The notes under the pieces: generated by a model
What the model was told of the DNA's origin: nothing
The model's database searches: none
The model's input: only the letters and a program-made list of their open reading frames with translations
Translations under genes and position numbers: made by a program
NCBI GenBank assembly: GCA_013289765.1
Contig: JABCZI010000001.1
Coordinates: 372,001-436,000, forward strand
From: Acidobacteriota bacterium
GTDB taxonomy: Bacteria; Acidobacteriota; Terriglobia; Terriglobales; Acidobacteriaceae
Reading direction: 5' to 3'
Length of the DNA stretch: 64,000 nucleotides
Shown: positions 388 through 43,127 of the stretch, piece by piece
Layout: the number at the start of each line of letters is the position of its first letter
Position numbering within the stretch: the stretch's first letter is position 1

Positions 388-1512
388 TCATCGACTCCAG
401 ACGGGTTTTCGTCCGGCCACAAAATTAGCGAACGCTACCACTGCCGCTGTGTTCAGCAGCAAGAAGGTCGCGGCCGCATCGCCCGCGCCTGCTATGATGC
501 TCGGCTTCGGCAATCGGACTAGAGCCAACAGGCCCAGCGCGTAGAAAGCCAACTGCAAAACCAGTGCTGCCCGGTAAACAACGCCGTTCAGCCACAAAGA
601 AGCGACCAGCATTGCCGTGAGCGCAAAAGGAACTGCCAGACGCAGCAACTTGTGACTGACGAACCGCCACAACAACGGATTGCGGCTGGTTATAAGCCAC
701 GGAGCGAGTTGCATCAGTTGATAATTTCCACTCAACGTTCGCACCTTGCGCGAGAATTCGGGGCCGCCACCGAGGTTCGGACTATCCCACGCGCGCGCCC
801 TGCCGTCGAAGATCACACGTTTTTCCTGCCGTGCCACGTGCATCGGAATGTAAACATCATCCAGAATGGTCCCCTCGGGCACTGGAACCAGCAAATTTCG
901 CCGCACCGCGTAAAGAGCGCCGGTCGACCCAACCACCGAACCTGACGCCGACTCCAGTTCGCGAATCTTTTTTTCGATTCTCCAGTACAGGCCCATTCCT
1001 CTGTATGCTTCACCCGATTCGGGATTACCCAGCATCAGCGCTCCGCTCACGCAACCTACTTGCGGGTCTGCGAAGTTTTCCACCAGCAGGCGGACGGCGC
1101 CAGACTCGATTTTCTGCCGTGCATCGGTGAAGACAACCACATCGCCCGCAGCCAGCGAGGTCGCGTCATTCAATCCGGAGGCTTTGCCGCGGGACAACTG
1201 GTTCATCACAACCTGCACTCGCGGATCTTCCGCGTGCTGCCGCAGAATAGCGTCCGTGCGATCTGTCGATCCATCCGAGACCACCACAATCTGGTAGAGC
1301 GCCTGCGGATAGTCCAGTTCCAGCAGGTTTCGCAGTTTTGCCTCAATCCACTGCTCTTCGTTGCGGACAACCATTACGATGGAAATAAAGAGTTGTTGCT
1401 GGGAGCGGAGTACCGGCCAGGGCCGAATACGGGCTCGCAACCACAACCAGCCCATGTAACCCGCGTAGGTATAGGCGATAAGAAGAGCGGAGGCCCAGAA
1501 CACCCAGGTCAT
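388..1512 (-). CDS. GT2 family glycosyltransferase, membrane-anchored
   Basis: A 374-residue inverting glycosyltransferase. It has an N-terminal membrane helix, then the GT2 fold beginning at SIVMVVRNEEQWIEAKL, with the nucleotide-binding VVSDGSTDRTD near residue 80, the metal-binding FTDAR near 130, and ILDDVYIP near 219 as acceptor-side acidic motif. Two or more membrane helices lie in the last 90 residues, as in processive or lipid-acceptor GT2 enzymes. The ATG overlaps the stop of the upstream glycosyl-1-phosphate transferase by 4 bp (ATGA), indicating translational coupling. It probably adds a later sugar of the exopolysaccharide repeat unit to the undecaprenyl carrier. Sugar specificity cannot be read from the sequence. 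Confidence 0.88.
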   Translation of the reverse strand: MTWVFWASALLIAYTYAGYMGWLWLRARIRPWPVLRSQQQLFISIVMVVRNEEQWIEAKLRNLLELDYPQALYQIVVVSDGSTDRTDAILRQHAEDPRVQVVMNQLSRGKASGLNDATSLAAGDVVVFTDARQKIESGAVRLLVENFADPQVGCVSGALMLGNPESGEAYRGMGLYWRIEKKIRELESASGSVVGSTGALYAVRRNLLVPVPEGTILDDVYIPMHVARQEKRVIFDGRARAWDSPNLGGGPEFSRKVRTLSGNYQLMQLAPWLITSRNPLLWRFVSHKLLRLAVPFALTAMLVASLWLNGVVYRAALVLQLAFYALGLLALVRLPKPSIIAGAGDAAATFLLLNTAAVVAFANFVAGRKPVWSR

Positions 1513-2885
1513 TGCGCTCCCCGTCCCAGGAGTACGATCTTAACGGTCTGAAATATGATCAGAAAATCCAGGCCCAGCGAGGCGTTCTTGATATAGAACA
1601 GATCGTACTGGAGCTTTTCGCGGGCATCTGCCAGCGTGTTCCCGTACTTGTATTGCACCTGCGCCCACCCGGTGATGCCTGGCCGCACCACGTGGCGTAC
1701 GCCGTAATAAGGAATTTCTTTGCTCAGCCACTCGACAAACTCGGGACGCTCCGGCCGCGGTCCAACAAAATGCATATCCCCCTTCAGCACGCACCACAAC
1801 TGGGGAATTTCGTCGAGGCGCGAGGAGCGCAGGAACTTGCCCACGCGGGTAATTCGCGGATCATCGTCCGAAGCCCAGGTCGCACCGGTGTCTGCTTCCG
1901 CGTTCGTCCGCATGGTGCGAAACTTGTAGCAGTAAAAAACTTGACCGCGCCTTCCCACGCGCTGCTGCCGGTACAACACTGGGCCAGAGGAATCCATCCG
2001 GACCGCCAGCACAATGAAAGGAAGCAAAGGCAGAGAAAGAATGAGCCCCATAAGGGCAACTGTAAAATTCAACATCCGGCGAAGCAGCCGAAAGACGCTG
2101 CTAAAGCGAAATCCATCGGCGAAAATCAGCCAACTGGGATACAACTGCTCGACTTCAATCCTTCCGGTGATCTTTTCCAGCCAGGAGGTTGCCTCTTCCA
2201 CTTTGACGCCCCCCAGGCGAAGCTCCAGTAATTCTTCCACCGGCAAAGTTCCGCGACGGTTCGGCATGGCGACGATTACGCGATGCACACCTTTTTTCTC
2301 TCTCGCCACGCCAAGAAGATGTGACGCTACGGTGTCACGGGTCAATTCGCCCGGAACATCGCCGGTCCACCCTACAACTTCGATGCCCAGAGTTGAACGT
2401 TCGCGCAGACCCGTCACCAGGCGTTCCGCGCGTTCTCCGGTGCCCAGCACATAAACTCGTTCGCGGAGGAAGGGTTGTTTCACCATCCAGAAATAAGCCC
2501 CGCGCCAACCTAGTAAAGTGAAGGTCAGAATAATGAGTCCAGCCAGTGCCGACCCATTTCCAGGCATAATGTTCGGATAAAGGAAACCGACCGCCGACAG
2601 CGCGAGCGATACAAATCCGAGAACCAGCAAAAGACGAAATATTTGATCCCATTTCGCTCCCACGCTGGAGGAATCGTAAAGATCGAACCAATGGGAAAAG
2701 AGCAAAACCACGCCGGTGACCGCGAGAATCTTCACATAGCCGTTTTCCACATTGAGCAGAAGCCAGCTGTCCTCCCGATTCTGCAACATGGTTCCCATGA
2801 CGAACGAGAGCCAAACAATCATGGCTTCGCCCACCAACAGAACGAGCGTACGCAGCGGATAATAGACTTTGAACAGCCGGATCAC
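1509..2885 (-). CDS. Undecaprenyl-phosphate sugar phosphotransferase (polyprenyl glycosylphosphotransferase)
   Basis: A 458-residue WbaP/EpsB-type initiating transferase. It transfers sugar-1-phosphate to undecaprenyl phosphate, the first step of repeat-unit synthesis at the inner membrane. The N-terminal third holds about four membrane helices. A middle Rossmann-like region (VYVLGTGERAERLV) follows, then the C-terminal bacterial sugar transferase domain with YCYKFRTMRTNAE, GPRPERPEFVEWL and VRPGITGWAQVQYKYG. The start is GTG, preceded by AGGA. It lies 15 bp after the kinase gene and overlaps the GT2 gene by 4 bp. It is close to the TIGR03013/TIGR03025 families that go with exosortase systems. 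The identity of the sugar is unknown. Confidence 0.9.
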   Translation of the reverse strand: MIRLFKVYYPLRTLVLLVGEAMIVWLSFVMGTMLQNREDSWLLLNVENGYVKILAVTGVVLLFSHWFDLYDSSSVGAKWDQIFRLLLVLGFVSLALSAVGFLYPNIMPGNGSALAGLIILTFTLLGWRGAYFWMVKQPFLRERVYVLGTGERAERLVTGLRERSTLGIEVVGWTGDVPGELTRDTVASHLLGVAREKKGVHRVIVAMPNRRGTLPVEELLELRLGGVKVEEATSWLEKITGRIEVEQLYPSWLIFADGFRFSSVFRLLRRMLNFTVALMGLILSLPLLPFIVLAVRMDSSGPVLYRQQRVGRRGQVFYCYKFRTMRTNAEADTGATWASDDDPRITRVGKFLRSSRLDEIPQLWCVLKGDMHFVGPRPERPEFVEWLSKEIPYYGVRHVVRPGITGWAQVQYKYGNTLADAREKLQYDLFYIKNASLGLDFLIIFQTVKIVLLGRGAQ

Positions 2886-2900: not shown

Positions 2901-3851
2901 CTAGGACTTCGTCTCAGTTACATTTTTTCCGGACGCCCCGTAGTAGTAGCGCGAATAGGGGGTGGAAGCACTATTGGTTCCGTTCAGCACCACCCCTACC
3001 AGAGCCTGATCGGGAAATTCTTCTCGCGCCCGTCGCGCCATATCGACGGGTGTGGCATTGGAACGCACGACCATCAACACACCGTCACAGCTCTTGCCCA
3101 GAACGCTGGCATCGGACACCGGAACTGCAGGCGGCGAATCGATGATGATCCAATCGAATAACGCCTCCACCCGTTGCAACAGGAATTTCAGCCGTCCGTT
3201 GGACACCAGTTCCGCGGGATCAGAGATTTCGTCTCCGCTAGGAATCAGAAACAAGTTTTCCATGGGACCGCGCTGCATGATCGAAAACTCGTCGCTCCTG
3301 CCTTGAAGGTAATCGGAGAGGCCTGGGGACGCCGTCGTGCCCAGCATCAGATGAAGGCGTGGACCGCGCAAATCGGCATCGATCAGCAACACCCGGCGTC
3401 CGTGTTGCCGTACCAACACCTGCGCGAGGTTTGACGCAGTGAACGATTTACCTTCTTTTGGCAGCGCACTGGTGATCAGCAGTTTCTTGAGCGTCATCTT
3501 TTCCCGCATGTGATAGAGGCGGGAGCGCAGGGTGCGAAATTCCTCAGTACCGATGGCTGAATCGTCACCGTTGAAGAACAACATCGTCGCATCGGGCTTC
3601 CACTGCAGTTGCGGGCAGCGCGCCAATAAAGCGTCAAGACCGAAAGGGTTTGCAAACGACGGCATAGCCGACGTAAGTGGAATTCCTCCAGAAGGGACCC
3701 CGGTTGCGACCGTTGCGGAAGGATCTTCATCGATCGTCCTCGCAGGCAGCTCAGATCTCTCGGGCGTTGCGAAACTGGAATGCGCTGAACCTCCCTGCGA
3801 TACCGCTCGTTCTTGTTCTGCTTTTTTCAAAGCTTCATGAATTCTGCTCAT
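2901..3851 (-). CDS. CpsD/CapB-type tyrosine-protein kinase
   Basis: A 316-residue cytoplasmic BY-kinase that acts with the Wzz-like protein in the same operon to control polymer length and export. Visible motifs are Walker A SALPKEGKS (128-136), Walker A' VLLIDADLR (154-162) and Walker B IIIDSPP (235-241). The C-terminus carries a tyrosine cluster, YSRYYYG, the usual autophosphorylation tail. The first 90 residues are a low-complexity linker with no membrane helix, so kinase and membrane activator are separate proteins, as in Gram-positive and exosortase-type loci. Its ATG overlaps the next gene by 4 bp. Confidence 0.9.
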   Translation of the reverse strand: MSRIHEALKKAEQERAVSQGGSAHSSFATPERSELPARTIDEDPSATVATGVPSGGIPLTSAMPSFANPFGLDALLARCPQLQWKPDATMLFFNGDDSAIGTEEFRTLRSRLYHMREKMTLKKLLITSALPKEGKSFTASNLAQVLVRQHGRRVLLIDADLRGPRLHLMLGTTASPGLSDYLQGRSDEFSIMQRGPMENLFLIPSGDEISDPAELVSNGRLKFLLQRVEALFDWIIIDSPPAVPVSDASVLGKSCDGVLMVVRSNATPVDMARRAREEFPDQALVGVVLNGTNSASTPYSRYYYGASGKNVTETKS

Positions 3852-4804
3852 AGTTTCCCTTCCTTGGGGAGGTCCTTCTCTTCATCGCGTAAGCGGTCGG
3901 CTAAAGTGGCCAGCGACCGCAAGGCTTCCACTAAATCAAATTTCTCCGCGCCGGCTGCCGCGACCGGCACCGTCATAACACCTGCCGCCGTACTGTCTCC
4001 TAGATCAAAATCTCGGGCCACTCCATCGACTACAGCCGGAGCAATTACTTTCTGTTGATCGACGAACGCGCTTACCAGGCAATGCTCGCACAGCAGATTG
4101 ATCACTCGCGGAATGCCGTTGGCATAGCGGTGAATCGCTACCAAAGACTCCGGGGCAAAAATCTCCTGGCCGTTTGAACCGGCAATTCGCAGCCGCTGCT
4201 GCACGTAAGCCTTGGTTTCGTCCAAGGTAAGCGGATGCGTCTTGGCGCGGAGCGTTAGCCTTTGCCGTAGTTGCCGCAGTTGTGGCTGCTTCAGCTTCTG
4301 CTCCAGTTCGGGCTGGCCGACGAGAACGATCTGCAGCAATTTTTCAGTGAAGGTCTCAAGGTTGGTCAGCATCCTGATCTCTTCCAGCACCTCATCGCTA
4401 AGGTTCTGCGCCTCGTCTACGATGAGCACCGCAGTCTCGCCCGCGCGGTATCGATCCAGCAGCCAGTTGTAGAGTCGCAGCAAGATCTGGCTCTTGGCTT
4501 TTGAGTCGCATAGAATACCGAAATCCGCCATCATGTAATCCAGGAACTGGGGTGTGTTCAGGCGCGAATTGAAGATAAAGGCGGTTGCCACCTGCTGCAG
4601 GCGCAACCACTCCAGCAACTTATTGATCAGGGTTGTTTTGCCCGTCCCAACTTCGCCGGTGAGCAACACAAATCCTTTGCGGCTCTGGATGCCGTATGTC
4701 AGGCAGGCCAGCGCTTCCTCGGTATGCCGCGTCAGAAATAAGTAACGCGGATCGGGGTTGACGTTGAACGGATTGGCCCGTAGGCCATAAAACTCTTTGT
4801 ACAT
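3848..4804 (-). CDS. ExeA/GspA-like AAA ATPase of exosortase-type EPS loci
   Basis: A 318-residue cytoplasmic P-loop ATPase. The N-terminus YKEFYGLRANPFNVNPDP is the signature of ExeA-like ATPases. Walker A is GEVGTGKTT (50-58) and Walker B is AVLIVDEAQNL (125-134). The family TIGR03015 (XrtA-associated ATPase) sits at this place in PEP-CTERM EPS clusters. It lies between the Wzz-like gene (24 bp gap) and cpsD (4 bp overlap). Its exact role in export is not known; coupling of ATP use to export assembly is the usual guess. Confidence 0.87.
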   Translation of the reverse strand: MYKEFYGLRANPFNVNPDPRYLFLTRHTEEALACLTYGIQSRKGFVLLTGEVGTGKTTLINKLLEWLRLQQVATAFIFNSRLNTPQFLDYMMADFGILCDSKAKSQILLRLYNWLLDRYRAGETAVLIVDEAQNLSDEVLEEIRMLTNLETFTEKLLQIVLVGQPELEQKLKQPQLRQLRQRLTLRAKTHPLTLDETKAYVQQRLRIAGSNGQEIFAPESLVAIHRYANGIPRVINLLCEHCLVSAFVDQQKVIAPAVVDGVARDFDLGDSTAAGVMTVPVAAAGAEKFDLVEALRSLATLADRLRDEEKDLPKEGKL

Positions 4805-4828: not shown

Positions 4829-6379
4829 CTACAGCCTTGCCATTTCCTTCTCATCCACTCCCTTTTTCCGACTCCAGAAGTGGCCTTTGCCGTTTGTTGC
4901 GACCGTTTCTATGACCCACGGAACCGAAACCAGAAGCGGAAGGCCCAAGGCGGCTTCGACATCCGCCTCAGTGCGAATGCTCTTGTCACGCATCTCAAGC
5001 CAAAGCGTCAAGCCAAGCCCCAAAACCAGACCGGCGCCTAATCCCCCGCCGGCAAACAACAGCCGGTTCGGAAAACTCGGCGAATCCGGAAGACTGGCGG
5101 GATTCAGCAGCGCCATCTGTTCTCCCTGCTGCTGCTGCTGGGCCTGGGTCGCCATCTTCGAGGTGCCCTGCTTGGCCAAGTCGTCCAGATAAACTTTTTG
5201 AGCGTTGTCGTAATCGCGAGCAAGTTCTTTGTACTGGCCCTCCACGGAAGGACTCGACGATACCCGTCCCTGGTAAATTGAAATTTCCTGCTGAAGTTTC
5301 TTTTGATCGCGCGTCGTCTGCGTAATCATGTCCTGATATTGGTGAATCTGCAGCCGCAGTTGACGAATCTCCGGTGGCTCCGATGCCGATCCCTTCTCGC
5401 TTCCCGGATCGGTTGCCTTCGTGGACGAGTCATTGATTGCCGCCAATTGCTTTTTCACTTCTGCGATATCGCCTTTGGTCTTGATCACGTCCGGGTGATC
5501 TTCGGTATAGCGCCCCTGCAGATCGATGAGTTGAGCCTGCAATTGTGAGAGCTGGGTTTGCAGGGTTTGGGGATTGGTCGCGGACAACGCTGTTTTCCAT
5601 GCCGCCAGTTGTTGCGCGAGCATCGATTCGGTATAGGCCTTGTCCTGAGTCGCCCGGTTCAAGGCTTGGGTATTCGCATCCAGTTGCGAATTCAAGCCCA
5701 TCAGGATCTTCATATTGTTATCTTCGTCTCCAGGAAGCTGGCCCATGTGCTGGTTCTTGAAGGCTGCGAGTTTCTTATCCAGATCGTCGAGATTCTGCTT
5801 GGCTTCCTCCACCTGCTTGGTGAGGAAAAGAGTTGTACCTTGGGTCGCATCCTGCCTGGATTTGAGATCTTCTTCGAGCAGCATCGAAGTCAGGTCGGTG
5901 CAGATTTGCTGGGCTTCGCGCGCGCTTGATGCCGTGTAATTTACGTTGAATCCAGGCACCGGGCTGCTCTGCTGGCCGGGCTTCTTCTTGGGGCCCGAAC
6001 CGAACTGCGACAAATCGGTGATCACCGGCTGGATCGTCATGTTGAGGCGAATGTTGTCCATCACATCGTCGACATTCTGGCCTCCTTTGGCCAAGCCCCA
6101 GCGATCCACCATGGGCCGCAATCGGCTCGGGCTCAGCACCTGCTGTTCGATCGTGGCAATGTGCTGCGTCAGGTCCTCGGTGAATACCTGCTGCACGACC
6201 GCATCTGGAATCTTTGGCGCTTCCACCAGCACCAGCGACTGAGATGTGTATTTAGGCGAGAAAGCGTACGACACTATGAATCCGGCCAACGGCGCCAGCA
6301 GCGCAGGGATCAGAATCACCTTGATCCGGCGGCGAAACATCGCCAGATAATCGTCCATCGTCAGTTCGCGATTTTCCAT
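4829..6379 (-). CDS. Wzz/GumC-like polysaccharide chain-length determinant
   Basis: A 516-residue inner-membrane protein. It has an N-terminal Wzz domain with a first membrane helix at about 19-42 (VILIPALLAPLAGFIVSYAF) and a long periplasmic part rich in Gln, Lys and Asp heptads (about 180-400) expected to form coiled coils. A second membrane helix near 437-460 is preceded by the proline-rich PASLPDSPSFPNRL typical of GumC proteins. It sets polymer length and bridges to the outer-membrane channel, with the separate CpsD kinase as cytoplasmic partner. A poly-Gln stretch (QAQQQQQGEQ) lies just before the second helix. It corresponds to the TIGR03007 type. Confidence 0.88.
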   Translation of the reverse strand: MENRELTMDDYLAMFRRRIKVILIPALLAPLAGFIVSYAFSPKYTSQSLVLVEAPKIPDAVVQQVFTEDLTQHIATIEQQVLSPSRLRPMVDRWGLAKGGQNVDDVMDNIRLNMTIQPVITDLSQFGSGPKKKPGQQSSPVPGFNVNYTASSAREAQQICTDLTSMLLEEDLKSRQDATQGTTLFLTKQVEEAKQNLDDLDKKLAAFKNQHMGQLPGDEDNNMKILMGLNSQLDANTQALNRATQDKAYTESMLAQQLAAWKTALSATNPQTLQTQLSQLQAQLIDLQGRYTEDHPDVIKTKGDIAEVKKQLAAINDSSTKATDPGSEKGSASEPPEIRQLRLQIHQYQDMITQTTRDQKKLQQEISIYQGRVSSSPSVEGQYKELARDYDNAQKVYLDDLAKQGTSKMATQAQQQQQGEQMALLNPASLPDSPSFPNRLLFAGGGLGAGLVLGLGLTLWLEMRDKSIRTEADVEAALGLPLLVSVPWVIETVATNGKGHFWSRKKGVDEKEMARL

Positions 6380-6426: not shown

Positions 6427-7977
6427 TTAGTCAAGCCGGATCGGCCGGGGAGTCCAATCCAGTCCGATTGAACCCACTTGACGCCGAGACGTGTTACTGC
6501 ACCCCACTGTGCCGGCAGAGCTGAACAAAGTCGGCGCCACCGGACACGCAGTATCGAAGCTCATGTGGTTGTACTGATAACTCAAAAATCCTCGGAAATT
6601 ACGTCCGAACTGCCGGTGCAGCCCTGCTCCGGCATACAAATAGCTAAAACTGTTCGCGTTGACGGTAGAACCGCCAAGCTGAAGCCGGCTGTTCTTGGTG
6701 TAGCCCAGGTCCCCAAAAATATCCCAAACGCGGCTCAATGGTCTTTGCGCCGCGAAACTCACAATGTCGCTGCGCGAGCCCGCGAAAAGTCCGGAGCCAC
6801 TGGTATTAAAGCGCTCATAACTCAGAGAGAGCGACGTTTTTGGAAATTTGTAGCGGATCGAAACGCGACCCGCGACACCGGTGTGGTTGGCGATCTGGGA
6901 CACACCCACTAAATTCCCTCCGATGCTCGAACAGTTGCTCGTAGGGATTTCCACGGGAATGCCCAGATAAGTACACACGTACGCGACGTCGCTGGTATGA
7001 GTAAATTGGGGTCCCGCGCCGATGGTGAAATCCATGCGCCCGGAAATGCGGTGACCGTACATGGCCTGCAAAACGTGCGAGTGCACTGCGGTACCGACGG
7101 TAGAAAAATTAAAGCCCTGGTACCCATAACTCAGCGCGATCTGATCCTTCGGATTCAGGATTCGGTCATAGCCGACTTGTACAGTCTCTTCACTGCTACC
7201 AATGAAAGCAATGTTCTCAGGGGTGCCGGTCAAGGAAGTAAGGCCACCGTAGAAATGTACGATTCCGTAGCCAGCGGAGAGCGTCATTGAGGACTTCGGA
7301 CTCAGGTTCTCAACGATATCCGCTAATCCCAAATTCGTAAGACGTGGCACCTGACCGACGGAGATGCCGCTTCCACCGTTGAACGAACTGGTCTGTCCGC
7401 CGAAAGCAGCGGCTCCAAGCATGCCCGAGCCCAGGCTCGCGAGCCCTGAGTTATAAGCCCCACTCCCGCCATAGGCTTCGAAACCAAAATTACCTTCGGG
7501 AAGGTAACTGAATGAATCGCGAATGGCCAATTGCCCGCGCCGCCAGTTGATCCTGTTGTCTATGTCGAATTGCTGCAGTTGCTGCAACCCGAGGCCCTTC
7601 TGGTCGTAATAGATCACGCCGCCGATGTAATCCATTGCTACCTGATAGTTTTTCCAGAGCTTCTGCAGCGTCAGGCTGCCTAACCCTCGCGTGACTGGGC
7701 TCACGGTTGACCCGCCTAGAGTGTCGCCGGCGTTAGAATCCACGGACTCGCTGAAATGCAGGCCGGGTAGCAGGAAACTCTCCGGAGCAGAGTGGGGCTC
7801 GAGCGACGGCTGGTCGATGGCGGATATGGGCGGGTTCTCACTCACCGTAGGTGCAGGATTTTCCTGTCCAAAGGCGGGTGCTGGGGAAGGCGCAGGCGGT
7901 TCGTCGCCTTGCGCCCAGGCCGCGCTGACCACAGACAGGGTCAGCGTTAGGGTCAAAATGATTTGGCCTTTGTTCAT
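6427..7977 (-). CDS. Outer-membrane beta-barrel protein of the EPS locus
   Basis: A 516-residue secreted protein. The chosen start gives a clean signal peptide, NKGQIILTLTLTLSVVSAAWAQ, 34 bp after the export gene with GGAAGAGG upstream; a longer reading from 8022 would overlap that gene. A Pro/Ala-rich segment follows, then about 400 residues of alternating aromatic and hydrophobic strands (for example VAMDYIGGVIYY, TLSAGYGIVHFYGG, SIRYKFPKTSLSLSYERF) ending in IGLDWTPRPIRLD. This resembles the beta-barrel proteins paired with exosortase-type EPS operons. Place in the operon suggests a role in secretion across the outer membrane. The strand pattern supports a barrel; the specific role is inferred. 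Confidence 0.75.
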   Translation of the reverse strand: MNKGQIILTLTLTLSVVSAAWAQGDEPPAPSPAPAFGQENPAPTVSENPPISAIDQPSLEPHSAPESFLLPGLHFSESVDSNAGDTLGGSTVSPVTRGLGSLTLQKLWKNYQVAMDYIGGVIYYDQKGLGLQQLQQFDIDNRINWRRGQLAIRDSFSYLPEGNFGFEAYGGSGAYNSGLASLGSGMLGAAAFGGQTSSFNGGSGISVGQVPRLTNLGLADIVENLSPKSSMTLSAGYGIVHFYGGLTSLTGTPENIAFIGSSEETVQVGYDRILNPKDQIALSYGYQGFNFSTVGTAVHSHVLQAMYGHRISGRMDFTIGAGPQFTHTSDVAYVCTYLGIPVEIPTSNCSSIGGNLVGVSQIANHTGVAGRVSIRYKFPKTSLSLSYERFNTSGSGLFAGSRSDIVSFAAQRPLSRVWDIFGDLGYTKNSRLQLGGSTVNANSFSYLYAGAGLHRQFGRNFRGFLSYQYNHMSFDTACPVAPTLFSSAGTVGCSNTSRRQVGSIGLDWTPRPIRLD

Positions 7978-8011
7978 CCTTATTCCTCTTCCACTTTTTC
8001 TTTTAGCAAGC

Positions 8012-8635
8012 TTACGGAACAACGATCGTATCTCCCGGTTTCAGAACGATATTCTGTTGCGTATCCCGTCCCTTGATTGCATCCTTATAGTGAAATGGCA
8101 GTTTGATCTGCTGGCCGTTCTCCCCCACCCGGAGAAGGTAAATCGCCCTGAGATTGGAGAACTGAGTAAATCCCGCGCTCGATAAGGCCTGCAACACCGT
8201 CATGTGAGGCAGCAACGGCATCGGACCGGAATGAACCACTTCGCCCAGCACAAAAATTCGCTGGCTGTTCATCGCCGTCACCACCACGGTCACACGCGGG
8301 TCAGCGATGTATTTTTTTAATTTGTCATGAATCGAAGTCCCGAGTTGCATGGGAGTCATACCCGCAGCCTGTACATCGTCGAGAAGAGGTATCGAAATTT
8401 TCCCGTCGGGACGCACCGGCAGAGTGACACTCATGTCGGGTTCTTTCCAGACCGTAATGTGCAGCGTATCGTCAGCCCCAATGATGTAATCGACCGGGGC
8501 TTGCCCGGAGGCTTGAACTTCTGGTGGCGCCTTTTGAGCCTTGTCGGAACCTGGGTGGGGCTCGTCCTGCGCCCGCACTCCAACGGTAACCAATCCTAAT
8601 AGCGCCAGGCACGCCAACTTTGCTACTCTTGTCAT
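8012..8635 (-). CDS. Wza-like polysaccharide export protein
   Basis: A 207-residue secreted protein from the ATG at 8635, which has AGGAG six bases upstream and gives the signal peptide TRVAKLACLALLGLVTVGVRAQ. An upstream in-frame start at 8665 would overlap the preceding stop. The mature part has the Poly_export domain (DYIGADDTLHITVWKEPDMS, VRPDGKISIPLLDDVQAAG) followed by one SLBB-type segment (RIFVLGEVVHSGPMPL) and a final KPGDTIVVP. There is no lipobox cysteine and no C-terminal amphipathic helix as in E. coli Wza, so it is a short form that probably works with the beta-barrel encoded next to it. Confidence 0.88.
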   Translation of the reverse strand: MTRVAKLACLALLGLVTVGVRAQDEPHPGSDKAQKAPPEVQASGQAPVDYIIGADDTLHITVWKEPDMSVTLPVRPDGKISIPLLDDVQAAGMTPMQLGTSIHDKLKKYIADPRVTVVVTAMNSQRIFVLGEVVHSGPMPLLPHMTVLQALSSAGFTQFSNLRAIYLLRVGENGQQIKLPFHYKDAIKGRDTQQNIVLKPGDTIVVP

Positions 8636-8651
8636 GCGCTCTCCTATCGAG

Positions 8652-9614
8652 CTAAGTCGCCCCATACTCCGAGCATCCCATTTGTTTAAGCTTGTACAGC
8701 AAAGCCTTATAACTGATCTGCAATTCCTGGGCGGCGCGGCGACGATTCCAGCGAGTACGGGTCAACGCGCGCAGAATAATTTCCTTCTCGGCTTCGCGCG
8801 AGGCGGCGCGGGCCACCTGCTTCAGAGAAACTCGAACACCGTTGGTTCCCACATCCGGGCGCAGCAACATGGCACGCAACCCGCCCATCGCCACCCTTTC
8901 ATCTCCCAGGGCCACGATCGCCTTGGCGGCATTTTCCAGCTCCCTCACATTTCCAGGCCACGAGTACTCCTGAAACAGGCGATGTGTTTCTTCGCTTAAT
9001 CCCGGCACCGCACGCTGAAAATCGCGGCCGTATTTGCGCAGAAAGTGTTCCATGAGCACCGGAATATCTTCCCGCCGCTGGCGCAGCGGCGGCAACCGCA
9101 AGCACACTCCACTGATGCGGTAATAAAGGTCCTCGCGAAGATTCCCCGCCCTAACCTCTGCTTCCAAATCGCAAGCGCTTCCACTAATGAGCCGAGCCAG
9201 GCCGTGAGCGCGACTGCCGTTCCCATTGCCCTTGGTCAAAGCGCGAAGCAACCAAGCCTGGCCCTCGGCGCTCAGTTCCGCCAACTCCTCTAAGAAGACC
9301 GTGCCCGCTCCGATCAAGTCCGCCGGCTCCGCCGAATCTTCGAATTTTTCGGGACCGAGTTGCGCACAAGAAATAACGCGAAACGTCTGCTTGCCGCGCC
9401 GGGAAAGATCATGGACCCTGCGGGCCGTGGCTTTCTTGCCTACACCGCGTTCCGCCAGCAAAAGCACTGGAACTTCACTTTGCGCGACCTCCCGCATAAT
9501 GGCTTCCACGCTGCGCATGCTTGGACTCGTACCTTCGACAAAGTCCACTCTCAGCGGCTGTCGGGGCATTGCGGTGTGTCCGTTTTCCACGCTTCGGCGG
9601 ACATGTGATTCCAT
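8652..9614 (-). CDS. Sigma-54-activator-like regulator lacking the GAFTGA loop
   Basis: A 320-residue protein, first gene of the EPS operon. It has an NtrC-type AAA+ core without a receiver domain, then a Fis-type helix-turn-helix at about 278-312 (LTRTRWNRRRAAQELQISYK). The core is degenerate: Walker A reads AERGVGKK (54-61) in place of GETGTGKE, and Walker B reads TVFLEEL (105-111). The whole segment that normally holds [13 protein letters not shown] is missing: residues 80-105 pass from ISCAQLG straight to LIGAGTVFLEE. The R-finger/sensor region (YYRISGVCLRLPPLRQRREDIP) and the WPGNVREL motif are kept. Without the GAFTGA loop it should not remodel sigma-54, so it may act as a DNA-binding repressor or a sigma-70 regulator of this locus. 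It resembles a shortened PrsR. Confidence 0.85.
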   Translation of the reverse strand: MESHVRRSVENGHTAMPRQPLRVDFVEGTSPSMRSVEAIMREVAQSEVPVLLLAERGVGKKATARRVHDLSRRGKQTFRVISCAQLGPEKFEDSAEPADLIGAGTVFLEELAELSAEGQAWLLRALTKGNGNGSRAHGLARLISGSACDLEAEVRAGNLREDLYYRISGVCLRLPPLRQRREDIPVLMEHFLRKYGRDFQRAVPGLSEETHRLFQEYSWPGNVRELENAAKAIVALGDERVAMGGLRAMLLRPDVGTNGVRVSLKQVARAASREAEKEIILRALTRTRWNRRRAAQELQISYKALLYKLKQMGCSEYGAT

Positions 9615-10100
9615 CTAAGGTCCTTTTCTCGCGGACAAAAGTCTCAGAATCCGACAGACTTCAGAAGCCTTGTAAGAGCACGGCACATACCATAAATCTC
9701 CCTGACGGGGAAAGATCGAAATCCAAGGTTACCGCCCTGTTTTCAAAAGTATATAAGCCAGAATCCGGCATGGGAGGGAGAAAAACCTACTCACGTTAAC
9801 CTACACGTTTCCCCACAAAAGAGAAAGTATTTACCCAATCAAGGGTAACCGCTTTCTCCTTTTGAACGGTTACGAATGGCAATAATACCCCAACTCCTTT
9901 CTCTTCAATGCCATGGAAACGGAGCTTTCGCTCGAGCCTGGACGAACAGTTTTCTTTTGTTCAATCTCGTAACGCGCCCCGGCTATTCCCCCCTGCGGCG
10001 GTGGCCCCGGGTGATTACCAGCGGTTAGGCTTTTGATTGCGGGCGCTTGCCGCTTCGAATATGCTGAAGGTATCCCCCAGGGTTAATTGAGCCATCTCCA
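9615..10100 (+). promoter_or_regulatory. Divergent control region between EPS operon and exosortase, with repeated GGTWACC motifs
   Basis: This 486-bp gap separates the minus-strand EPS operon from the plus-strand exosortase gene and must hold both promoters. No convincing -24/-12 sigma-54 promoter was seen. The motif GGTTACC/GGTAACC or close variants recurs: GGTTACCG at 9727-9734, GTTAACC at 9795-9801, and an inverted pair GTAACCG (9845-9851) and CGGTTAC (9867-9873) 15 bp apart. The pair could form an operator, possibly for the Fis-HTH protein encoded next door. The 3' part (about 9970-10040) is GC-rich with no coding signal. Binding is inferred only from the repetition. Confidence 0.4.
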
Positions 10101-10994
10101 GTGAGCCAAGTGCTGCAATCCGAACGAGTACGCGTACGTCTGCCCGCGGTTGCACCGGCGCGGCCCTCGTGGTGGAAAGCCGTCGTGATCGCCGGCGTAT
10201 TGCTCTGGCTATATATGCCAACGCTCGCTCATCTGGTCTCGCAATGGTGGAACGACCCCAATTACTCTCATGGTTTTTTCGTTCCTCTATTTTCCGCATT
10301 TGTGATCTGGCAGGAACGAAACAAGTTAAGCGGGCTGAACCCGCGGCCCTCGTGGGCCGGGCTATTGTTCCTGGGATTCGGACTGTGCGTACTTATCGTT
10401 GGGCAGATGGGCGCGGAGCTTTTTCTTTCGCGGTTGTCCTTACTGATTGTGCTTGCGGGATTGATCGTGCTTTTTCTGGGATGGAATTTTCTTCGCGCCC
10501 TTATATTCCCCTGGGCGTTCCTGCTTCTGATGATTCCGGTTCCAGCAATTGTCTTCAACCAGATTACATTCCCCCTGCAATTACTGGCCTCGAAAGTCGC
10601 CAGCACCACTCTGCCTTGGATGGGAGTGCCTGTGCTACGGGAAGGTAATGTCATCGTTCTTCCGGCCATGGCTTTGGAAGTGGCCGAAGCCTGCAGCGGG
10701 ATCCGCTCGCTGATGTCCCTGACTACGCTTGCCGTAATTTATGGTTATTTGATGGAACGTAAAGTCGGCGTACGCGTCCTGTTAGCTGGGGCCTCGATTC
10801 CGATTGCTGTTGCCGCCAACAGCTTACGTATCGTTGGGACGGGCTTACTGGTGCAGTACTGGGATCCTGAGAAGGCGCAGGGATTCTTTCATGAATTTTC
10901 GGGATGGCTGATTTTTGTGGTTTCGCTCGTCATGCTCTACCTTCTGCATCACGTCGTTCGCATCTTCTGGCGCGAGGAGTCGACGGAACCATGA
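10101..10994 (+). CDS. Exosortase (XrtA/EpsH family)
   Basis: A 297-residue polytopic membrane cysteine transpeptidase. The start is GTG. Eight or so hydrophobic helices are visible. The catalytic triad of the family is present: Cys198 in EACSGIRSL, Arg243 in ANSLRIVG and His264 in GFFHEFSGW. Exosortases cut C-terminal sorting signals (PEP-CTERM-like) and join proteins to a surface polymer, and they are usually encoded beside EPS loci as here. The next gene, epsI-like, overlaps by 4 bp. No obvious PEP-CTERM substrate was recognised in this window. The exact exosortase subclass was not decided. Confidence 0.92.
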   Translation: MSQVLQSERVRVRLPAVAPARPSWWKAVVIAGVLLWLYMPTLAHLVSQWWNDPNYSHGFFVPLFSAFVIWQERNKLSGLNPRPSWAGLLFLGFGLCVLIVGQMGAELFLSRLSLLIVLAGLIVLFLGWNFLRALIFPWAFLLLMIPVPAIVFNQITFPLQLLASKVASTTLPWMGVPVLREGNVIVLPAMALEVAEACSGIRSLMSLTTLAVIYGYLMERKVGVRVLLAGASIPIAVAANSLRIVGTGLLVQYWDPEKAQGFFHEFSGWLIFVVSLVMLYLLHHVVRIFWREESTEP

Positions 10995-11644
10995 AAAGAT
11001 CCGGACTGCTGCGCTTCTCTTTGGCCGTGACGCTGATCGCCTTGACGGCGATCCTATTGCAGGCGCGCGGTCGCAATGAAATCATTCCCCGTCGCCTGCC
11101 ATTGTCTTCGTTTCCCGCACAGCTCGGAAGCTGGGACGGCACCGAGATCGAGTTAGACAAGCAAACTCTCGACATTCTTGGTGCTGGCGACTTTATGGAA
11201 CGCGTCTATCAGAATCAGGCTCAGAGATTGCCGGCCATCGATCTATTTCTGGCCTACTTTCCCAGCCAGCGAGCTGGTGACACCATCCACTCTCCGCAGC
11301 ATTGCCTGCCTGGAGCAGGATGGAATCCCGAAGAGAACAATCGCGTTACCCTTTCTCTGCCCGCTCACGAGCCCTTCCCCGCCAACCGCTACGTGATCGC
11401 CAGAGCCGGCGCGCGGAAGTTAGTAGTGTATTGGTATTGGGCGCATGATCGTGGCGTGGCCAGCGAATACTGGGCCAAGTACTATTTGGTGGCGGACTCG
11501 ATTCGCATGAACCGCAGCGACGGCGCTCTGGTGCGCATCACCACCGATATGTTTCCAGGCGAAACAGCGACCGCCGCTCAGCAGCGCATCCTACCATTTG
11601 CTTCTGCGGTGAGTCCGCTGCTGGATGACTACATTCCGCGCTAG
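10991..11644 (+). CDS. EpsI-domain exosortase-associated protein
   Basis: A 217-residue protein with an N-terminal signal anchor (LLRFSLAVTLIALTAILLQA) and the EpsI/DUF3485 domain, recognised by the conserved AGDTIHSPQHCLPGAGWNPE and the YWYWAHDRGVAS segment. The start is the ATG at 10991, inside the exosortase stop (ATGA overlap). EpsI domains are found next to or fused to exosortases and are thought to help EPS synthesis or export; their biochemical activity is not established. The His-Cys pair in the conserved motif is the likely functional centre. The protein is probably periplasmic and membrane-tethered. Confidence 0.9.
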   Translation: MKRSGLLRFSLAVTLIALTAILLQARGRNEIIPRRLPLSSFPAQLGSWDGTEIELDKQTLDILGAGDFMERVYQNQAQRLPAIDLFLAYFPSQRAGDTIHSPQHCLPGAGWNPEENNRVTLSLPAHEPFPANRYVIARAGARKLVVYWYWAHDRGVASEYWAKYYLVADSIRMNRSDGALVRITTDMFPGETATAAQQRILPFASAVSPLLDDYIPR

Positions 11645-40433: not shown

Positions 40434-43127
40434 TTACCGGAGGATGCGTTTCTCTATCTTGAGCTGTTTGATTTTCAAATGTAACGTCGACGGCGGAATC
40501 CCGAGCTTGACCGCGGCTCCGCGAGGCCCAGCAACTTTCCCTTTGGTTTCCGCAAGAGCGCCTTCTATCAATTCCTTCTCATAATTCCGGAGGTTCTGTG
40601 TGAGTGGGCTCGACGATCCGGTGCGAGGTGCATTTTGGGTTGAAAGCCAGGCCTCATCGATCCAAAAGGTATCCCCGGTGCAGAGGATTACGGATCTCTC
40701 GACGATATTTTGCAGCTCACGAATATTACCTGGCCAATCATAGGACTGGCATAACTTGAGCGTGTTCTTGTCGATCTTGCTGATCTTCTTTTTTCGCGCC
40801 TTCTCCGCATAACGCTTCACGAAGTACTCGACCAGCATCGGAATGTCTTCCCTCCGATCCCGAAGAGACGGCACGTCGATGGGGAAGACGTTTAATCTGT
40901 AAAAGAGATCTGCTCGGAAACCACGTGCGGCTATCGCTGCCGATAGATCGCGGTTGGTAGCGGCGATAATTCGGACGTCAGTGGAAATGACCTTGCTGCT
41001 TCCCACTCTTTCAAACTGGCGTTCCTGGAGCACTCGAAGCAATGCAATCTGAGCTTCCGCGGGAAGCTCGCCGATTTCATCGAGAAAAATTGTGCCGGAG
41101 TTCGCCAACTCAAAGCGACCCTCTCGGCGCTGCAGAGCACCGGTAAACGCGCCCTTCTCGTGGCCAAACAATTCCGATGCGATGAGCGAACCAGGAATCG
41201 AGGCGCAATTTACGCTGATAAAAACCTTGTTTGCACGTTGCGAATGCTTATGTATGGCGCGTGCAATGAGTTCCTTCCCGGTACCTGTTTCGCCCGTAAT
41301 CAGCACCGTAGAATCAGTAGGAGCAACTTTCACGATGCTCGAAAGGACTGTCTTCAACGCCGGGGAGGAGCCCACGATCTCTTCAAACATGAAGACCTGG
41401 TCGATTTGCTCTCGCAACACGAAGTTTTCTTGCCGCGTTTTATCCTCCGCCTGTTTGCGATCGTCGATGTCAGTGGCGGTCGCATACCAGCGGATGATCT
41501 CTCCCTGTTCGTCCCGCAGCGGGTTGTATTGGACCAGGAACCAACGATATTGATCGTCCCTGCTTCGGCGCACTCGTAGTTCGTACTCGAATGGGCCCCC
41601 TCGCGCGAGCGCCGCAGCGCGTTCATCGCGCAATCTCTCCAAATCCTCCGGATGAAAAACCTGACGAAAGTTCCCCGACTTCATTTCTTCTTTCGTCAGG
41701 CCGGTGTACTCCAGAACTGCCCGATTTGCAAACAGAAAGGTTCCATCAGTTCCAATAGCGCCGATCAGCTGAGGTATGGCGTCGATGATGGTTCGAAGCT
41801 CAGCTTCGGATCTGGCTTTTTCTTCGAAGGCCTTCGCTAATTCACCTTCGGCGCGCTTCCGGTCGTCAATGTCAGTCAACAATATGTACCAGCCGGTAAC
41901 ACGACCATCCAGATCGCGCGCGGGGAGCGCGCGAGATTGAAACCAGCGGTACACACCATCGGCACGCCGCTGGCGGAGCTCAAGATCCTGCGGCTGCCCG
42001 GTTTCGAGCCAACCACGATACGCGTCCATTACGCGGGGAAGGTCATCCGGATGGACATGCCCGAAGTTGGGCGAATTTTTCCATTCCTCAATCGTCGTGC
42101 CGAAATATTCCAAGGCTTGGCGGTTGAGAAGTTCGACCTTTCCTGCGGCGCTCAAAGTGAACACAAACCCCGGAATGGTGTCGACGATCAGACGAGAGCG
42201 TTCCTCACTCCCATGGAGCGCCGACTCGTTGCGCTTACGCTCAATCGCAACCGCCGCGATATGCGTAATCTGCTCGATGATCTTTTGATCCTGCTCATTT
42301 GGCCTGCGCGGCTCGCGCCAATAGATCGCGAAGGTACCCAATACAAGGCCATTCGAGGCGAGGATAACGGTCGACCAGCACGCTTTTAGGCCATGCGTCA
42401 ATGCGGATGTGCGCCATCCATACGTGTCCCATCGGGTGTCCGAAGCCACGTCCGAGACAATCACTTGTGTCTTGCTACGCGCTGCCTGAGTGCAGGGTCC
42501 ACATTCGCGATCCACCGGTATGCCTGGGAAGTGGTCGTTATAACTGGATGGGAGGCTGGGGGCAACAGCCTGCTGGATTTCAGAGGCACTTGGATCGAAC
42601 AGGAGGACGCTACAGAGACATCCACTGGCGGTCTGCTCTACAACTCGGCACAGGGCTTCGAGAATAGATTCTAGAGGATTGCCCTTGGCGGTCATTTCCA
42701 GAACGAGATTCTCTCCGGCAAGCAAGCATTCCGCCCGTTTCCGGTCTTCGATGTCGGTGTTCGTCCCAAACCATTTGACAACCTCTCCATCGCTGTCGAA
42801 AGAGGGGGTCGCACGGAAAAGAAACCAACGATACACGCCGTCGAAACGGCGCAAGCGCGCTTCCATCTCACCTGGCGCGCCAGAAGTCAGAACCGATCGC
42901 CAGTAATCCACGAGTCCATTCACGTCGTCCGGGTGAAGGGCAACCGTCCAGCCCCAATCATGAGCCTGTTCGGTTGAGAGACCGGTATAGTCGAGCCAGC
43001 GCTGGTTGAAGAAATCAGCGGATCCGTCCGAACGAGCGGACCACGCGAGGGTCGGGATTGCGTCAACCACAAGGCGAACGTTCTGCGCTTGCCGAGCCAG
43101 ATCAGAGGTGTGGGCTGCAGATGCCAT
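40434..43127 (-). CDS. Sigma-54-dependent activator with PAS-GAF-PAS-PAS sensor region
   Basis: An 897-residue cytoplasmic enhancer-binding protein. Order: PAS (about 15-130), GAF (about 140-300, with [13 protein letters not shown]), PAS (about 310-430), PAS (about 435-560), AAA+ (about 585-815) and Fis-type HTH (about 850-895, [20 protein letters not shown]). The AAA+ core is complete: Walker [28 protein letters not shown], Walker [12 protein letters not shown] and [11 protein letters not shown]. There is no receiver and no membrane helix, so it probably senses a small soluble ligand or redox cue through PAS/GAF. It lies between two operons whose promoters P1 and P2 carry the same activator block, so it is the likely controller of both. 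It follows the epoxide hydrolase gene by 84 bp and may be autoregulated through P2. Confidence 0.92.

Follow-up and report, generated by a model that had tools for sequence, protein, structure and literature searches.

A GAFTGA-less paralog of a sigma54 activator heads an exosortase-linked EPS operon in Acidobacteria and is a candidate feedback antagonist at its enhancer

The DNA examined here (the window) is a stretch of 64,000 nucleotides from an Acidobacteriota genome, positions 372,001 to 436,000 of contig JABCZI010000001.1, that contains an exosortase-linked EPS operon and, divergent from it, genes for an exosortase and EpsI (Table 1). The first gene of the operon encodes a bEBP homolog, here designated REG, and the gene directly next to it encodes a Wza-type polysaccharide export protein. 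This order is shared by all 27 loci around REG orthologs (26 of the genus and one, G055, from another family of the class), and in 22 of the 27 an exosortase gene lies on the same stretch, divergent from REG, once at a distance of 4.6 kb. In a larger collection of 105 fetched REG loci, 101 have Wza directly after REG on the same strand, and in L175, L198, L201, and L219 the contig ends within 110 bp of the gene. A divergent exosortase is on the fetched stretch in 76 of the 105. The intergenic region between REG and the exosortase gene (9615-10100) is as the initial annotation of the window described it.

Table 1. Features of the REG locus and EPS operon, in window coordinates.
Feature	Position	Strand	Remarks
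GT2 glycosyltransferase	388-1512	-	
EpsB-type glycosyltransferase	1509-2885	-	TIGR03013, above cut-off
XrtA-associated tyrosine autokinase	2901-3851	-	TIGR03018-like; above cut-off for TIGR01007
XrtA-associated ATPase	3848-4804	-	TIGR03015-like, below cut-off
Wzz/Wzc chain-length determinant	4829-6379	-	TIGR03007-like, below cut-off
PEP-CTERM-system outer membrane protein	6427-8022	-	TIGR03016-like, weak
Wza-type polysaccharide export protein	8012-8665	-	TIGR03027-like, below cut-off; its longest ORF shares 14 bases with REG
REG	8652-9614	-	ATG start, 320 aa; REC-less AAA+ bEBP homolog without GAFTGA loop; Fis-type HTH, recognition helix ISYKALLYKLK
Predicted sigma54 -24/-12 promoter	9677-9692	-	TGGTATGTGCCGTGCT; 8/11 consensus letters; 78 bp before REG start codon
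TTGAAAA / AT-rich element between enhancer and -24	9740-9755	-	conserved in alignment
Enhancer-like dyad	9821-9836	-	family consensus GGGAAA-N4-TTTCCC; window copy has 2/12 mismatches
Exosortase, divergent from REG	10101-10994	+	XrtA model, above cut-off
EpsI	10904-11644	+	TIGR02914, above cut-off

By Pfam, REG comprises Sigma54_activat in two pieces, AAA_lid_14 and HTH_8, that is, the AAA+ sigma54-interaction domain with lid and the Fis-type HTH by which a sigma54-activating bEBP is recognized. Neither Response_reg nor any other Pfam match was found N-terminal of the AAA+ domain, whose match begins at residue 28. The closest sequence relative of REG in the PDB is ZraR, and most of the GAFTGA stretch is skipped in their alignment. 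The AlphaFold single-chain model of REG, which is of moderate quality (pLDDT 71, pTM 0.57), matches structures of ZraR, NtrX, DmpR, PspF, and VpsR, the last of these (7v2b) being among both the sequence and the fold matches; these matches predict an AAA+ activator fold preserved outside the loop.

The initial annotation held that a segment of about 25 residues containing GAFTGA had been lost from REG. The segment is indeed missing, but its size is 16 residues: between the switch Cys and the Walker B Gly-Thr, REG has 20 residues vs. 36 in seven intact relatives of the type described below as ACT (five of the seven encoded upstream of Wza), leaving the L1 segment of REG 16 residues shorter. The pre-sensor-1 (L2) loop is also four residues shorter than in these seven relatives (14 vs. 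18). The altered Walker A and Walker B sequences (AERGVGKK and FLEEL) are as had been stated, and the switch Asn and sensor-I Asn are lost as well, while both arginine-finger arginines, the P-loop GK, the Walker B Glu, WPGN and the HTH are retained. The AAA+ motifs (Walker, switch, sensor, arginine finger) are named here by general usage.

Among the 27 REG members of the genus, the first Gly of Walker A is replaced by Ala in all, the switch Asn and the sensor-I Asn are present in none and the Walker B Asp in only one, and on account of these losses the REG sites should hydrolyze ATP poorly. The catalytic Walker B Glu was found in 27/27 genus members and 61/70 more distant ones, and the two arginine-finger arginines in 27/27 genus members and in 67 and 61 of the 70, respectively. 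As the first Gly of Walker A is kept in 39 of the 70 members outside the genus set vs. none of the 27 within it, we infer that the loop was probably lost first and that the ATPase site was worn later. The invariant residues of the HTH are present in 97/97 REG proteins.

The annotation had viewed the loss of GAFTGA as a change within exosortase-type EPS loci, where an intact PrsR is the norm, and had named homologs that retain the motif, together with decay of this copy, as the observation that would speak against a change of function. Neither was observed. A search of 61 related genomes, 37 of them of the genus (the source genome included), identified REG orthologs with E below 1e-110 in 27 genus genomes and, less closely related, one in G055. 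All 28 proteins are open frames that lack GAFTGA in the alignment. A wider set was assembled from a class-wide search of 399 genomes and from a search of named genomes, in which 80 loci were kept of 158 relatives; the closest titles of the named-genome loci are Candidatus Sulfotelmatobacter, Acidobacteriaceae, Terriglobales, and Terriglobia MAGs. The motif is absent from 105/105 fetched REG loci, duplicates included, and from all 97 distinct REG proteins of at least 250 residues. A phylum-wide draw of 396 genomes (E up to 1e-85) produced no REG outside the class, the six genomes that matched all belonging to the same family as the source genome. Two REG loci of the acidobacterial kind bear other titles (L175, Verrucomicrobia AV16, and L216, Bacillota HOT.MB2.40), which look mislabeled or derived from mixed bins.

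Two trees, both built without the L1 and L2 columns, place REG as a paralogous class-wide clade rather than a one-off variant. In the first, 35/35 REG proteins group together (SH-aLRT 100), with ACT, an intact REC-less bEBP, as the sister group (93). In the larger tree, 97/97 REG proteins lie on one side of a branch with SH-aLRT 99; its long branches belong mostly to the non-REG rows, so the branching order within the non-REG group is unsure. Orthology of REG to PrsR is ruled out by the tree, by the missing receiver domain and by a score of 159.5 against the PrsR model (TIGR02915), for which the cut-off is 502.6.

In the ten closest genus ortholog pairs REG is under purifying selection (omega 0.06-0.19), with the strongest constraint on the HTH (omega 0-0.07); the stretch that replaces L1 (omega 0.09-0.83) is looser than the whole AAA+ core in nine of the ten pairs. 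This selection and the open frames in 27/27 orthologs rule out decay or a sequencing artifact. That REG is a functionless, decaying relic of an autoregulated activator was already disfavored and is, in our judgment, highly improbable: its Walker motifs are degenerate in the genus and partly canonical in distant members, and three genus genomes have the whole EPS operon without REG, but the omega values, the intact frames, the invariant HTH residues, and the conserved promoter and operon position all argue against it.

The intact sister protein, ACT, retains GAFTGA, Walker A and B, and sensor I, and is encoded in the source genome (G000) at G000:C17:18830-19933. It was detected (E up to 1e-90) in all 27 REG-bearing genomes of the genus and in G055 (28/28), as well as in 7 of the 10 genomes of the genus that lack REG. 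Every REG-bearing genome of this sample thus has ACT, whereas ACT is often found where REG is absent. In another family of the same order (f2), no REG was found in the 14 genomes searched, and in the loci that we read the slot upstream of Wza is occupied by an intact, GAFTGA-bearing bEBP of the ACT clade. The source genome encodes 20 other bEBPs whose match to the family is nearly full-length, and among these only ACT and one response regulator have the ISY[KR]ALLYK helix of REG. At one position of the recognition helix REG has Lys where the seven ACT relatives have Arg, and it is the response regulator that shares the Lys of REG. The window itself contains another bEBP (40878-41378, minus strand; G000:C1:412878-413378) with GAFTGA intact in an open frame of 908 aa, and this protein does not have the ISYKALLYK helix.

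In both genomes in which the surroundings of ACT were inspected (L109:9828-14192 on G000:C17 and L111:573-4900 on G007:C43) a PilZ gene adjoins it, leaving a link to c-di-GMP possible. The ISYKALLYK response regulator is encoded near ACT in those genomes, with a histidine kinase gene between the two in G007. Elsewhere, a second EPS ATPase gene of the TIGR03015 type lies directly downstream of ACT (G011:C17, L261:8576-10718), and an EPS ATPase gene at G016:C411 (L263:6585-7538) is accompanied by neither a Wza nor an exosortase match over the 18 kb read around it.

Inspection by eye of alignments of REG upstream regions revealed a GG and a GC, both conserved and separated by ten bases, and a dyad farther away. 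The sigma54 consensus tested was TGGCAC-N5-TTGCW, with GG and GC required and a threshold of 9 of 11 letters. Sites at this threshold were present in 76 of 96 distinct REG upstream regions vs. 2-9 regions for eight other spacings and 2-9 for the reverse strand, and when the start codons were set by homology the count was 80/96, with other spacings and the reverse strand giving no more than 7. Before Wza such a site was found in 7 of 93 regions. The window copy is weak when taken alone (shuffle p 0.15) and owes its significance to conservation. A promoter for sigma70 only, which had been read by eye from the TATATACTTTTGAAAA element, was dropped on the spacing test.

Among dyads up to 230 bp upstream of the -24 element, GGGAAA-N4-TTTCCC ranks first, occurring in 53 of 89 regions (best shuffled dyad, 2-3) and in all 53 at 124-160 bp before the -24. 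With one mismatch allowed it is present in 58 of the 96 REG upstream regions (shuffle mean 0.24, maximum 2). In 18 close relatives, the window included, the distance from the dyad to the -24 is 140-150 bp while the REG start lies anywhere between 75 and 244 bp from the -24, and the dyad and the sigma54 site therefore move as one unit. Between them, the IHF consensus (up to one mismatch) occurs in 41/89 regions (shuffle mean 6.8, maximum 13); the likeness to IHF sites is that of the set as a whole. Enhancer, bend and promoter are the classical layout of a sigma54 promoter, and rpoN is present in the source genome. At least one of the group-3 promoters (L079) has two dyads, at 7212 and 7324, about 110 bp apart, and the one that is common to L086 (7180) is a near-perfect palindrome.

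In the three genus genomes that have the whole EPS operon without REG (G011, G027, and G031), no sigma54 site reaching 9/11 letters lies within 250 bp of the Wza gene. The dyad persists in G031 with two mismatches, and the -24 GG position of that genome reads GA by eye. The pattern is consistent with linked fates of REG and the sigma54 promoter, although two of the operons are relocated and simple joint deletion may be the explanation in those.

Upstream of the exosortase gene, on its own strand, a sigma54-like site was found in 13/71 regions vs. 3-6 for other spacings, and a conserved TTCGCATATGCTG-like element was seen by eye just before that gene in part of the alignments. A signal for EpsI at spacing 4 (40/64) was taken to be an artifact of conserved coding sequence; the spacing control can mislead inside genes, the REG upstream regions being mostly intergenic. 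A strict composite pattern matched in 4 of 399 genomes, two of them at REG promoters, and was too strict. The loose dyad TGRGHAANNNNTTTCCC, with one mismatch, gave 48 matches in the source genome vs. 12 in a reversed control, but since the pattern is nearly palindromic and double counts are possible we drew no conclusion from it, and a wider regulon is possible. With up to three mismatches allowed, the source genome has a single copy of a 21-base enhancer form.

We also examined the upstream regions of 40 ACT genes picked by hand from the results of the 61-genome and class-wide searches, 35 of which encode proteins of at least 50% identity. The dyad precedes 8 of the 40 (shuffle mean 0.08), leaving 32 without it, and a sigma54 site was found in 13 of the 35 (0-1 at wrong spacings). 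In family f2, three of the seven ACT genes near Wza (at least 50% identity) have the dyad. The ACT gene of the source genome has neither a dyad with up to one mismatch nor a sigma54 site of 9 letters or more, and no dyad was found in the flanks of 18 other bEBP genes of that genome. That the dyad precedes ACT genes in genomes without REG indicates that the enhancer is independent of REG.

These data bear on the suggestion in the annotation that REG had become a regulator of sigma70 promoters. VpsR and the NtrC of Caulobacter offer a precedent for such a role: REG could act from the dyad at sigma70 promoters, activating or repressing the exosortase or other genes, while the sigma54 promoter would control only the synthesis of REG itself. 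VpsR controls an exopolysaccharide of the biofilm and, as noted above, resembles REG in sequence and fold, and the dyad lies in the shared intergenic region, 265 bp before the exosortase ORF. Action at sigma70 promoters is described in excerpts of PMC10274813 for the NtrC proteins of Caulobacter and R. capsulatus and for the V. cholerae bEBP. The joint movement of dyad and sigma54 site and the presence of the dyad before ACT genes where there is no REG speak against this reading, and REG, unlike NtrC, is without a receiver domain. We regard it as unlikely overall, and sigma70 regulation as the less likely main role, because the operon to which REG belongs carries a conserved sigma54 promoter, an enhancer dyad and an IHF-like site.

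A bEBP without L1 cannot engage sigma54. The need for L1 in this engagement is also stated in excerpts of PMC3162934 and PMC10274813. As the operon promoter needs L1 engagement and REG has no L1, REG should not activate its own operon, and another protein must do so; the view of the annotation that REG is unlikely to activate sigma54 is supported to the extent that REG alone should be unable to. Judged from sequence, the EPS operon is probably sigma54-driven by ACT or by a sister response regulator. We take ACT as the most likely activator, although the ISYKALLYK response regulator, which has the Lys of REG in its helix, is an equally possible one.

Of the roles considered for REG itself, that of a feedback antagonist at the shared enhancer appears the most likely, and the change from activator to repressor proposed in the annotation is the best fit to the evidence, both the binding of REG and its negative sign being inferred. 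The intact activator, ACT or the response regulator, would bind the GGGAAA-N4-TTTCCC enhancer and drive the operon via sigma54. REG would be made from the same transcript and, with a recognition helix nearly the same as that of the activator, would bind the enhancer or join the rings of the activator, unable to remodel sigma54, such that the output of the operon would be capped by negative feedback. We give an even chance to the proposal that REG arose by duplication from the activator that drives the exosortase-linked EPS operon, was disarmed, and caps output in this manner. Just short of an even chance, in our estimate, is the proposal that it is a dedicated, class-wide sigma54 brake, encoded at the head of the very operon that it holds back and made as an enhancer competitor in each round of transcription.

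Several observations do not sit easily with negative feedback. The window copies of the dyad and the sigma54 site are weaker than the family consensus, the ACT gene of the source genome and 32 of the 40 ACT upstream regions are without the dyad (the former without a sigma54 site also), the uniqueness of the 21-base enhancer form would equally fit a purely local binder, and the recognition helices of REG and the ACT relatives differ by the Lys/Arg substitution. The retention by REG of the arginine fingers and the P-loop GK, and the canonical Walker A of some distant members, make a positive or structural role in mixed rings possible. REG might then be a co-activator that assembles into mixed hexamers, with ACT or the response regulator as partner, and raises or tunes activation, contributing DNA binding and arginine fingers while the partner subunits supply GAFTGA. 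The arginine fingers and Walker B Glu, retained throughout the genus and in most distant members, are consistent with such a contribution, and unequal subunits are conceivable as the protomers of the PspF hexamer adopt different L1/L2 states, according to an excerpt of PMC12054792. Against this, every genus member has lost the first Gly of Walker A, the switch Asn and the sensor-I Asn, all but one of the 27 also lack the Walker B Asp, and in family f2 ACT adjoins Wza without any REG. We consider co-activation improbable.

Sigma54 promoters are all-or-none, being silent without an activator. If our preferred interpretation of REG as a feedback antagonist is true, a conserved, disarmed activator encoded in an operon it can bind would offer a simple means of making the sigma54 switch graded or self-limiting, and an activator would have evolved into a repressor through the loss of one loop. 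It would also yield a prediction of how exosortase-linked slime production is controlled in the Acidobacteria, which are abundant soil bacteria. With candidates identified for the enhancer, the promoter, the intact sister and the disarmed protein, the idea is directly testable.

No account of the REG protein or circuit was found among the matches listed (titles and abstract openings) in the open-access literature, subscription papers being outside its scope, and GAFTGA together with Acidobacteri gave no match there. Proteins with GAFTGA were the only ones retained in a survey of sigma54 regulons from 2025, whose excerpted text does not mention Acidobacteria (PMC12316311). Sigma54 sites and an upstream motif before PEP-CTERM genes, with PrsK/PrsR named, are reported for Proteobacteria in an excerpt of Haft et al. 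(2006; PMC1569441), and one RpoN-dependent PEP-CTERM gene was tested according to an excerpt of PMC9850573.

GAFTGA-less homologs were already known. VpsR and the NtrC of R. capsulatus have an N-terminal receiver or receiver-like domain. Excerpts of PMC3162934 list E. coli TyrR and DhaR, R. capsulatus HupR, VpsR, and B. subtilis YplP as bEBPs in which GAFTGA is deleted or altered, and excerpts of PMC10274813, in which the V. cholerae protein called VpsR elsewhere is printed VspR, add the NtrC proteins of Caulobacter, which both activates and represses, and Rhodobacter capsulatus. Like these proteins, REG retains the AAA+ core and the HTH with L1 deleted or altered; unlike the VpsR/NtrC group, it has no N-terminal receiver or sensor domain, and it is a paralog beside an intact sister, encoded in an operon of the sigma54/enhancer type. 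PrsR/PrsK (TIGR02915/TIGR02916) have in common with REG the exosortase/EPS context, a Fis-type bEBP, and a sigma54 site with an upstream motif, as far as the excerpt of PMC1569441 goes, but REG has neither the receiver domain nor GAFTGA, its score falls far short of the PrsR cut-off, and the promoters of the PrsR system, in the same excerpt, precede PEP-CTERM genes in Proteobacteria whereas that of REG serves an EPS export operon in Acidobacteria. ACT, the sister clade, has a near-identical recognition helix and shares the dyad at part of its genes, differing in that it keeps GAFTGA.
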